NCBI GenBank assembly: GCA_011503125.2
Contig: WWBZ02000016.1
Span: 5,022,001 to 5,086,000, forward strand
Source of the DNA: Botryosphaeria dothidea
Taxonomy: Eukaryota > Ascomycota > Dothideomycetes > Botryosphaeriales > Botryosphaeriaceae
Direction of reading: 5' to 3'
DNA: 64,000 nucleotides
The translations under genes were made by a program, and so were the position numbers. Position 1 is the stretch's first letter. Every line of letters begins with the position of its first letter. Under the pieces are notes generated by a model. The model did no database searches and was not told the origin of the DNA. It was given only the letters and a program-made list of their open reading frames with translations. Below are positions 57,611 through 62,233 of the stretch, piece by piece.

Positions 57611-57846
57611 ACAAGGCCATTGGAATTTTTTGGCGAAAGAATTGGACGAGAGTACCATGGTGTTGTTGGCGACGGGATGTAGAAGATTATTTACCTCAAG
57701 GAGCACCACTGCTCCATCGAAAAATTGCTGGAGGCCGAAGCTCCGGGATTTGTCAAAATGCAAAAGTTCTACAGATGTTCTCAGAACATCTTTTTCCATC
57801 TGACATACACGTTAGGTCACATTTTTCCATTGGGAATCTCGTTCTC

Positions 57847-59198
57847 TTACATGCAAACAGTTCCGTCATCACCTCCGGAGGCAAATATCGTGGGGTCTTG
57901 AGGATGCCATGAGACTTCCGTCACGCATCCTCCAGAGGAGTGCTTCAAAATTGCTTTGAGTCTCGACTCCCTATCCCAAATGAAGACACGACCGTCTGTG
58001 CAATGGGTCAGCACAGACTTAGATTCTGTAGCTGTAACATACCTTCATTACCACTCATAATGTACTCATCATTAATGCCCCCAAAAGAGCTGTGAATGAT
58101 GGAACCCCCGACATTATAACCGTAAAATGTGCCAGTAACCTCACCACTGTGGATGTCTATTATAAGATCCGTTGCTATCCCTCGGCTGTTGGCTAGAAGG
58201 AGTTGTCGAGAGTCTTTGCTTATGTCGACACTTTCGAGATCAGCTCCGTCAAGTACAAGCTCATGGATCTTCTGTCTCGTCTCAGCGTCATATATGTAGA
58301 CGCAATCCTCGGTAATCGCGACAAGGAGGCGACCGTCCTCGCTTAGCGCAAGATGGCTGGCAAGATAGCGTTCACTCCATCCATCCACGATGGCCCCCGA
58401 TTCGCTCCAGGAAGACAGTCCATACGGTTCATATTGGGATCCTATGATGACTGTTGATGCCTGCTTTGGATCCCAAGCGCCAGATGTTGGTGGGTACGCA
58501 AATGTATTGATACATGTCAGCCATGATGATTTCTATCCCATTGGTCAGCGTCTATCGTTCCAGGTTGCGCAATTAGTATTTACTCTATTATCCCATATAC
58601 GCGCGGTGTTGTCCTCGCAGGTGGCCAATATTTTCGAGTCGTCCGGGCTCCAAGTGATGTTGTTGACAGCAAAAGATAGTGGCACACGTGATGCCGGCGT
58701 TGCGTAATTACTCGTATTGTAGATGAATATGTCACCCCCTTTGCCGGAAACTGCCAACATGGTGCCGTCATGTGAGAATGAAGTGCACCATACCTCATCC
58801 GGATGGCCCGAAAGTCTATGCAAAAGCATAAATGGGCGTTCTTGATATTCGAGCAATGAGTTCACCAACAGGCTGGCGGTGTCAGTGCCATCGGAACGGT
58901 AGGGTTCGGCCGCAGCTTGAGCTTGATTCCCCACACGCTCACGGGATAGGGCTAAACCGACTTGGTAGATCTCAACATCGGATTTCGGGAGCACCAATGC
59001 TGGTAGTCCAGCGAGTTCGCATAGTATGCTAAAGTCCAAGTCTTGAAAAGGCTCCATGGAAAACAGAGTGAGACCTTTTCCAACTCTGGAAAAGAGTACT
59101 GTTCCTTCATCTAGTCCCATTCCAGGATCCCAGAGAAATGAACTGAGATTTGTGGTATCAGCGCGGCCAACATGAGCTGACTTTGCCACGATATCCAT
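57847..59198 (-). CDS. WD40-repeat protein (Gid7/WDR26-like propeller)
   Basis: About 417 residues if it starts at the ATG at 59198; exons 58584-59198, 58043-58532 and 57847-57995, introns 58533-58583 (GTAAAT..GATAG) and 57996-58042 (GTATGT..GCACAG), all in phase. WD40 blades: HPDEVWCTSFSHDGTMLAVSGKGGDIFIYN, VNNITWSPDDSKILATCEDNTARIWD, LALSEDGRLLVAITEDCVYIYD, then NEDGRVFIWDRESRLKAILKHSSGG and EVSWHPQDPTIFASGGDDGTVCM at the end. The blade wording is closest to Gid7/WDR26, but no LisH or CTLH is present. The gene starts 17 bases after the NLR stop; a GT donor at 59246 and AG at 59177 could instead join the NLR ankyrin region to this propeller in one protein. No lesion seen. Confidence 0.72.
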
Positions 59199-59214
59199 AA
59201 TTTTTGTGATGGGT

Positions 59215-61696
59215 TTATGAGGTTGATTTCGCTGAGACAAGCTCACCTAAAAATTCATCGAGCAGAGGGCTGACCGGAATGTCGGCATCAACGAGGTCTC
59301 TGAGGAGCTCAATGGCCCCGAAATTCTCATCCCTCAATGCTACCGCAAGGGTGTCATGCCAAAGATCGCCTTTCAAACCCGAACTCTTGGCACTCTCGAT
59401 CAATAAGTGCGCTATCGTCATGGATTCCCAGATAATAGCACCGTACAGAAGAATCTGGCCGGAAATGTTTGTACGGAGGACTAGTGCTCCTGAGCTGAGA
59501 AGGTGGCGGATAATAGGATCGTTGTTGTATCTTACCGCAATCTGCAATGCCGAACGGCCATGTGGGTCAATGACGTTTATGTCCGGTGAGTCCTTGATAA
59601 GTTTCTGAGCTATCCATGTCAAACCACGTGCAATGGCGAACTGTAGCGGGACAGCTGCAATAGGAACTTGGGAGCTGAAACGTCTTCTTCTCTTCCAGTA
59701 ATCGGCTTGATACGCGTTCGCAAACGGGTGTTTGCTTTCAAGAAGATCGAGGGCCATCTCACGCACATCTTTATCAATCAGTCCGCCTTCCTCAGCACTA
59801 CGCATGTGTCGAGCCCAGAATGATGCGGCGTAAGTGAGGAAGGGAAATCTCTTGGCTCGAGCTATTAGCTCTGGCTCTGAAGGACTGCAGCCGTCTTCGG
59901 ACTCCTTGATGAGGAGATAAGCGAGACAAATCTTGGTGATATATGTTTGTGCCTGGGGAAAGCGAGTAATTCGGAGGCGCTGAAAATAATCCTGTGTAGT
60001 GAAATGCACTAGTCTGATCACGTCGCTCGACTCGTCGCCTGGAGGCCAAGACAGCTGGCCGGAATGCTCAAGTTGTGTACGTCTACTGCAACAACAGGGA
60101 GCAGAGTGAGCAAACAGCCATGAACCTCGTCAAGAGTCTATTGAGACAGCTGGTAGAAAAAGAAAAGACATTCTCACCACGGATATGCGGCCTCTACGAC
60201 AAGTTCATCAAAAGCCAGAAACGCCCATCCATAGAGGAATGGACAGAAATTCTTCTGGCGGAAGTTTCCATCTTGGACATCGCCTACATCGTGATCGATG
60301 CATTCGACGAATACTCCGAGGTGAACCGGACTCGTACCGAACTTTTGCAAGCGCTGCGTAGGATAGTCAAAGATCCGCGAGTGCAGCTGCTCATCACCGC
60401 CAGGCCAATGACAGTGGTCGATATTGACCCTGATAGAACAAGGTCTTTACGGATTCATGCACGTCCGGAGGATATGAGATTGTAACTCGAAAGTCAAATC
60501 GATCGTGATGAGCGATTGTCGCGCATCATCCGGCGAGACCCTGGACTGCGAGGGTGCATAGTCGACACGATTGTCTCCAAAGCCAATGGCATGTTCCTTG
60601 CAGCAGAATTACACCTCGCCTCCCTTGCCTCGAAAAATAGTCTGTCGAAAGTCCGCAAGTCTTTGGAAATGATCCCCGAGGATCTAGATGGAGTGTACGA
60701 TGAAGCAATGTTGCGGATCGAGGCACAAAATAAAGGCGATCTTCAACTTGCTGAAAGCATATTGTCCTGGATTACATATGGGTATCGGCCATTGAAGCTC
60801 ATCGAACTGTGTCATACTCTAGCAGTGGAGCCAGAAGAAGACACCTTGGATCCTGAGAACATACCCGACACCCTGACACTGGTCGATATTTGCGCCGAGT
60901 TGGTCACCATCGGTCAATGACTATTGATCTATAAATTGTAAACATCGTGAAAAGGTACAGGCACGAATATCTCTTACGCTAGAATGGTTTTCCCTGCAGC
61001 AGGGATTCCCGGACACCAAAGTATGGGACACGAGCCGCGTTCCCACTCTTGAAACAGCTGCTCGTCCAGAAACCAAGTCCCAGTCCCCGGTCGGCGACGC
61101 CGAAGGTGATCTTCCTGTTTTGACGTGAACGACATGTTCGAGATCCAGTCCAGGATTTGCCGTCTTTTGAGATCTTTATTGTAAATCAACCCTATCCTCG
61201 AGAGATTCTATGATATCTTACCCATATTCACGGAGGAAATCTCATCGATGCTACTTTTGATAGCAAGCGACAAGGTAAAATGATCCTGTGCAAGCGCGAC
61301 GGCAATAAGTGTCTGCAGTCGATGAATGTGTGAAAGAGAGTCTTGCGTGCCTTCTTTCGAGAACGGCCACGAAAGCATCTTCCCATATTTCTTCGTACCT
61401 CTCGCAGGCTTCAGCGTTTTCGCTATCTTTTCCAATGATTCTTTGAACTGTTCTAGCGAGCCATCTTCACCGACTAAGTTCCGAACGCCTTTGAACCACG
61501 GGTCGTTCGAGTCCGTCGTCTCCGCCCGTGATTTGAGGTCATTCAGTTGGCCGAGGAGGTTGACGCATTCTCTGGTGAGTTGATCGCGCTCAGCCTGCGC
61601 GTCTTTGACGTTGTTCAGATACTTGATCATTTTCCCAGCATACTCGAATAGCTGAGAAACACTGGCAACGAGACCTGTGATTGTTACAGGATCCAT
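59215..61696 (-). pseudogene. NLR/STAND gene (N-terminal STAND domain, NACHT, ankyrins) split by an internal inversion
   Basis: Fungal NOD-like receptor, a family linked to self/non-self recognition. On the minus strand: N-terminal domain MDPVTITGLVASVSQLFEYAGKM (start 61696), intron 61174-61221, then DLKRRQILDWIS and the NACHT P-loop CPGIPAAGKTILA (about 61000), donor at 60977 and acceptor at 60929. The next part of the NACHT domain (VVYVYCNNREQ, YIVIDAFDEY Walker B, SKANGMFLAAELHL, LVDICAELVTI) is present only on the plus strand, 60036-60912. The minus strand resumes at 60035 with DESSDVIRLVHFTTQDYFQ, then ankyrin-like repeats (GRSALQIAVRYNNDPIIRHLLSSGA) to 59215. Turning 60036-60912 around rejoins both ends in frame. 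Inside it a TAA (60483-60485) also interrupts the frame. So the gene is inactivated, or the assembly has flipped a piece. Confidence 0.85.
60036..60912 (+). other. 877-bp inverted segment within the NLR gene
   Basis: The segment begins CGCCTGG and ends CCATCG; both ends carry the self-complementary dinucleotide CG. Inverting it gives GTC-ATT-GAC|CGC-CTG-GAG (VIDRLE) at one end and ATC|GAC-GAG-TCG (LVTIDESS) at the other, both expected NLR text. I see no longer inverted repeat at the flanks and no mobile element. Confidence 0.88.
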
Positions 61697-62233
61697 GATT
61701 ATTCTGATGCGTGTCCTCGGGGAAGACGTAGGTCAAGAAACAGCTGAAGGGGTTGGAGGCAATGAGCTGGAGCCTACGGCAAGGCTGAACTGGCCCCATT
61801 TGCAGTGCGGGGCTGCGTCAGAGTACTCCGTGTCGCTTCAAGGGATCTGAACCAATCAGAGTCGTGGGTCACCCTAGCCGGCCTGTGAGATTTTGCGTCG
61901 ACTGAAACTTAGGTCGAACCGAGCATGGAATATGCTGTGCCTGAGTAGATTGTTGTGGTGTTTGTCGAAAATGGGGCACGAGCCAGATGATTGACAATCG
62001 GAAATATAGAGAAACAGAACCGAGGAACTACTTGGTGGTATGGATTATTGCGAGAATTGCGCGGTCGAAGCAGCCGCTTCTCGCTCTGGAAATCATTTGA
62101 GATTCGCCTCTTCTTTCCTCGGATTGCGCTTCACATATGGTATCTCCCGCGCATTTCAGGAAGAAGAATCAATGACACCAGTCGAGTGACTATTTCGGTG
62201 GTTTGAGTGTTCAATTTACGGAGCTGGCCAGCT
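61697..62233. other. Intergenic region
   Basis: No gene is supported. It is the promoter side of the NLR gene and the 3' side of the IMPACT-domain gene. Confidence 0.45.

Follow-up and report, generated by a model that had tools for sequence, protein, structure and literature searches.

The closest described systems are the het-d, het-e and nwd genes of Podospora anserina, which encode NACHT NLRs with WD40 repeats and whose natural alleles are often dead (PMC12222747). In the accessible part of that report, 6 of the 16 French isolates had an inactive het-e and 12 an inactive het-d, and one paralogue, a pseudogene in the reference strain, had an open frame in some other strains. The gene described here, from the tree-canker fungus Botryosphaeria dothidea, belongs to the same kind, with ankyrin repeats as an addition relative to het-d and het-e. 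However, stop codons and repeat content are what the same part of the report describes in the Podospora cases, whereas the present gene carries an inversion (PMC12222747).

Inversions of small size have been described elsewhere in filamentous ascomycetes. In Sclerotinia sclerotiorum, a 3.6-kb inversion at MAT has 250-bp inverted repeat flanks and its orientations segregate 1:1, according to the abstract-level account of PMC3574095. It is, like the present one, a small gene-truncating inversion; nevertheless, the Botryosphaeria locus has no flanking repeat and its gene is broken either way. The size finds a parallel in Fusarium graminearum, whose strains differ by inverted stretches as short as 156 bp, according to the excerpt of PMC11152077. 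Botryosphaeria belongs to the Dothideomycetes (PMC8905617, in its excerpt), a class in which mesosyntenic inversions are frequent and simple repeats are over-represented within 500 bp of their breakpoints, as stated in the excerpt of PMC3516569. In contrast to those breakpoints, the present ones lie in a region (59500-61450) with no tandem array of score 30 or more. Among the literature matches listed, by their titles and the beginnings of their abstracts, none was about an inversion within a fungal NLR gene, and none in one set of 12 listed out of 1,942 carried the phrase "intragenic inversion"; examples may exist in print. The locus serves as a clean example of the death of a fungal NLR gene by a sub-kilobase inversion, with the uninverted junctions in relatives for comparison. 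It opens no new mechanism and is a tidy instance of a kind already described.

Gene layout and the inverted segment

The window, the whole stretch of 64,000 nucleotides that was analysed, covers positions 5022001-5086000 of contig C12, which is 5551323 bases long, in an assembly of 51.7 Mb and 78 contigs, and the locus lies about 0.47 Mb from the contig end. By its predicted domains, the receptor gene is of the fungal NACHT-ankyrin-WD40 NLR type, runs on the minus strand from about 61696 to 57850, and has the order N-terminal domain, NACHT, winged helix, ankyrin and WD40. Its features are listed in Table 1.

Table 1. Parts and lesions of the receptor gene, in window coordinates
Feature	Position	Strand	Evidence or remark
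N-terminal exon, MDPVTITGL... start	61211..61696	-	P0012 starts here; P0003, P0005 and P0006 align in the exon
Possible intron, GT..AG, 48 bases	61174..61221	-	By-eye reading of the sequence; would contain in-frame TAG 61208-61210
Exon with Walker A / P-loop of NACHT	60978..61173	-	NPHP3_N (PF24883) profile 1-39, E 4.8e-10
Intron, GT..AG, just upstream of right breakpoint	60929..60977	-	By eye; P0013 and P0019 read MFTIYRSIVID there
16-base exon stub ending at right breakpoint	60913..60928	-	Runs on into TGA: ASIVIDRW, stop
Inverted segment: NACHT core after Walker A to first part of winged helix	60036..60912	+	NPHP3_N 49-164, E 3.8e-17; tblastn strands
In-segment TAA	60483..60485	+	Sense codon there in P0002 and P0013
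Remaining winged helix and ankyrin-repeat part	59241..60035	-	Pfam Ank_2, E 4.4e-07; P0011 89% identical
Shift of the reading frame from -2 to -3, compared with P0011 and P0002	59230..59240	-	Homologue alignments
WD40 part, several exons	57847..59240	-	Pfam WD40, E 2.2e-13 and 8.7e-08, two of three frames scanned

In the Pfam scan, a NACHT/NPHP3_N P-loop domain was found in two opposite-strand pieces together with C-terminal repeats, as in an NLR. The first piece of the profile lay in the minus-strand frame 60974-61207 and the second in the plus-strand frame 60018-60482, and the repeat families over the cut-off downstream, all on the minus strand, were Ank_2, Ank_3, Ank and WD40. The winged helix (GPIID_WHD) is cut by the breakpoint, and its match in the window was weak and below the cut-off (E 0.0048). 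In P0013, a protein of a close relative, it scored over the cut-off (E 9.8e-08) and spanned the ankyrin-side junction. No family passed the cut-off in the N-terminal exon, and the PDB yielded just two matches for the N-terminal domain, one at E 0.81 and one (E 0.0058) in which 21 residues matched a designed coiled coil. The in-frame TAG between this exon and the P-loop exon may be intronic or may be one more lesion.

The strands of the gene parts were compared by tblastn (E <= 1e-3) with eight homologues (P0002-P0009) that had been found via the ankyrin side. Seven of them matched the locus, and P0004 gave no row at this threshold. In all seven, the NACHT core matched on the plus strand and the ankyrin side on the minus strand. 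The upstream part with Walker A was also on the minus strand in five (P0003, P0005, P0006, P0007 and P0009), reaching 60977-60980, and was without a match in P0002 and P0008. In six of the seven, the two matches met at 60911 on the plus strand (60917 for P0002) and at 60036 on the minus strand. The homologue residues at this meeting were adjacent or overlapped by two (263/262, 578/579, 571/572, 505/506, 513/514 and 511/512), and the junction was looser in P0008 (365/403). An earlier note on this DNA had placed the NACHT core on the strand opposite to the rest of the gene and had read this as an 877-bp inversion inside an NLR-type gene. Both statements hold: the matching homologues agree on the strands, close relatives encode the uninverted order, and the Pfam pieces, the tblastn strands and the junctions of the relatives all fit. 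The inversion is present in the assembly.

A backward-inserted duplicate or paralogue was considered and rejected. The DNA of the inverted segment had a single match in the genome and is therefore not a duplicate inserted backwards, and the other genome matches reached an identity of at most 33% for the NACHT piece and 26-30% for the ankyrin piece. Moreover, the difference from the nearest relative climbed from the segment (17/260 sites) through the ankyrin part (29/264) to the WD40 part (32/175), and the difference from P0002 climbed likewise (33%, 51% and 64%). Because of this parallel rise, the segment appears to be native to the gene rather than converted from a paralogue.

That the DNA is uninverted in the living strain and was turned by the assembly is improbable. 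Large-scale oddities do occur in the assembly: on two other contigs, C36 and C78, near-identical stretches recur at a single offset. However, the segment matched only once in the genome and its ends are without repeats, so the usual causes of misassembly are absent. Furthermore, the protein P0010 (268 aa, 100% identical) begins at GTG 60021, which is the first start codon in the inverted context; an uninverted copy would place the ATGs at 60591, 60669 and 60708 upstream in its frame. P0010 occurs on 12 contigs, the longest of 19741 bases, which must therefore be other contigs than that of the window; the protein itself does not reach across the breakpoint, so this evidence is indirect. The plus-strand frame of the segment was not found among the predicted proteins of 85-271 aa, a result that is neutral or slightly against a real inversion.

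Breakpoints and formation of the inversion

The breakpoints given by the earlier note, 60036 and 60912, were correct, and the pairs 60037-60911 and 60038-60910 are equivalent to them (two ambiguous bases inward, none outward). By eye, the stretch from the Walker A exon to the right breakpoint was read as a GT..AG intron followed by a 16-base exon that reaches the breakpoint. The description of both junctions as codon-exact in that note was borne out by eye, since the phase is kept at both breakpoints, but one residue differs at the breakpoint. The first codon inside the segment encodes Arg, whereas the nine homologues read have His in eight (P0003, P0005, P0006, P0007, P0009, P0013, P0019 and P0020) and Ser in one (P0008). 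Since the left CG of the dinucleotide common to both ends falls within that Arg codon, the common CG could be a by-product of the join itself, in which case no microhomology need have been there beforehand. In any case, when the gene region was cut at random, 3161 of 20000 cuts gave an overlap of 2 bases, about one in six. Overall, no base was gained or lost.

For 57800-62200, 24 inverted pairs were listed, and the two ends are joined by none of them; the likeness of the two end regions in inverted orientation was at the random level (182 of 200 random pairs were as good or better). This supports the earlier note in calling homologous recombination between inverted repeats unlikely. Recombinase-like joining with a 2-base core was also rejected; in inverted orientation, the 60 bases on each side of the ends resembled each other no better than random pairs did. 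We consider it highly probable that the locus records a one-off inversion of 877 bases, most likely by end joining, in a recently dead NLR allele with further damage. Two double-strand breaks would have been made in the NLR gene, and the middle piece would have been turned round and rejoined by end joining.

The earlier note had also raised an on/off switch, that is, a programmed or recurrent inversion toggling a non-self recognition gene in the manner of the Sclerotinia MAT inversion. The kept codon phase at both junctions and the zero net balance of bases would suit such a device. However, the ends are paired by no inverted repeat, in contrast to the repeat-flanked Sclerotinia segment (PMC3574095, in its abstract-level account), and no tandem array lies nearby. 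Neither repeats or recombination sites at the ends nor a working product in one orientation was found, and the stop and the frame change described below remain whichever way the segment lies. On these points the switch failed as a reading of this locus, and we regard it as extremely improbable.

The wider genome argues in the same direction. At least 142 NPHP3_N hits were counted in 123 places of the assembly, a lower bound obtained from 150 scored candidates out of 179. Within 6 kb of each other, 20 pairs of hits were found; 19 were on the same strand, and the sole opposite-strand pair was the present locus, so that the 20 neighbouring pairs hold no other NACHT split of this kind. The GPIID_WHD hits, with the present locus not included, lay on the strand of the neighbouring NPHP3_N hit in 17 of 17 cases when the lists were compared by reading. 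Among 70 loci, many of which overlap, 41 had adjacent matches, and the strand changed only in L001, L002 and L010, all of which are the present locus. As far as surveyed, intragenic flips are not a habit of this genome. The NLR-like repertoire itself was large, and some NPHP3_N hits had stops inside the domain.

Further lesions, close relatives and the state of the gene

The in-segment TAA pointed out by the earlier note lies at 60483-60485, and P0002 and P0013 have a sense codon at its place. Outside the segment, the frame changes at the boundary of the ankyrin and WD40 parts, at about 59230-59240. The gene thus has at least these two lesions besides the inversion, and they break it in either orientation. 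Repeat-induced point mutation was rejected as the source of the stop, as TpA/ApT was 0.48-0.58 in the parts of the gene and 0.57 in the window, which is no signal. One continuous receptor frame is absent owing to the inversion, the stop and the frame change, so the locus reads as an NLR pseudogene and not as a working NLR. Judged from these lesions, the gene is most likely a pseudogene that was decaying anyway.

The spliced reading would end two codons after the right breakpoint, and the truncated product would keep at most the N-terminal domain and the P-loop. A different product has been deposited: P0012 (GTA08_BOTSDO03322, 283 aa; "Ankyrin repeat protein" in one source) passes from the N-terminal exon directly into the ankyrin part, leaving out about 1.6 kb, including the NACHT core. 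The core is missing from P0012 because it is inverted, and by this skip the public annotation hides the inversion.

Close relatives supply the uninverted order. Over 293 residues of the segment, P0013 (501 aa) shows 92% identity; its alignment continues ungapped from the upstream exon through the segment into the ankyrin part and crosses both junctions. P0011 (475 aa, 89% identical) crosses the second junction, and P0019 (120 aa, 97% over 107 residues) crosses the first. By their alignments, all three encode the uninverted order, the only one seen in the relatives; the length limits of the two ankyrin-side searches would have passed over an uninverted protein of 533-711 aa from the same species. 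The proteins come from contigs with longest lengths of 73-76 kb and may belong to another species or to divergent alleles of the same one. By sequence, P0013 had no relative in the PDB at E <= 0.1.

The copies of the relatives look damaged, each differently. In P0013 the frame is lost within the ankyrin part, P0019 terminates within the NACHT, and the pair P0014 and P0011, which share 99% identity, passes over 136 bases of the window in its WD40 part; these proteins look like intron-blind ORF calls, and their ends may be technical. From these alignments, the receptor seems to be decaying in the relatives too.

The age of the lesions was approached by a relative-rate test with P0002 as the outgroup and with P0013 (segment) and P0011 (the rest) as the relative, over 699 sites (118 + 142 + 264 + 175). 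The window lineage had 20 lineage-specific replacements and the relative 22 (two-sided p 0.88), a test that is weak because the copies of the relatives also look damaged. For the segment alone the numbers were 8 and 6, and for its second half 7 and 3. Since the window lineage shows no excess of replacements, its lesions are probably young on the scale of the split from the relative, although 20 against 22 also agrees with selection on the gene up to a recent time or with decay at the same pace in both lineages. The earlier note had spoken of an older dead allele. The allele is dead by its inversion, stop and frame change, but the replacement counts do not make it old; it would have died recently.

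Selection for the loss is the remaining alternative. The inverted allele could be a selected null or truncated allele, whose benefit would be either an N-terminal protein without a sensor or the loss of an incompatibility reaction that is costly. The frequent inactive NLR het alleles among the Podospora isolates mentioned above (PMC12222747, in its accessible part) are in line with it, and the damaged-looking relatives fit repeated loss. Nevertheless, the further lesion downstream looks like plain decay, and we hold a selected null to be unlikely. Still smaller is the chance that selection keeps the inverted allele, with a sawn-off N-terminal domain and P-loop that would act alone or block incompatibility and with strains that would differ in whether they carry it. 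The one-off inversion in an allele with further damage remains the preferred account.

In the C36 and C78 contigs, the near-identical places (L056, L057 and L070) were set apart by a constant offset of about 885.7 kb. Between L056 and L057 identity was complete over 3252 bases, the stretch C36:3000000-3004000 recurred at C78:2114276-2118275 with 100% identity, and two groups of NPHP3_N hits paired up likewise. As compared at these places only, the sharing may reflect redundancy in the assembly or else a duplication of recent date, which could extend over 0.57 Mb or more.
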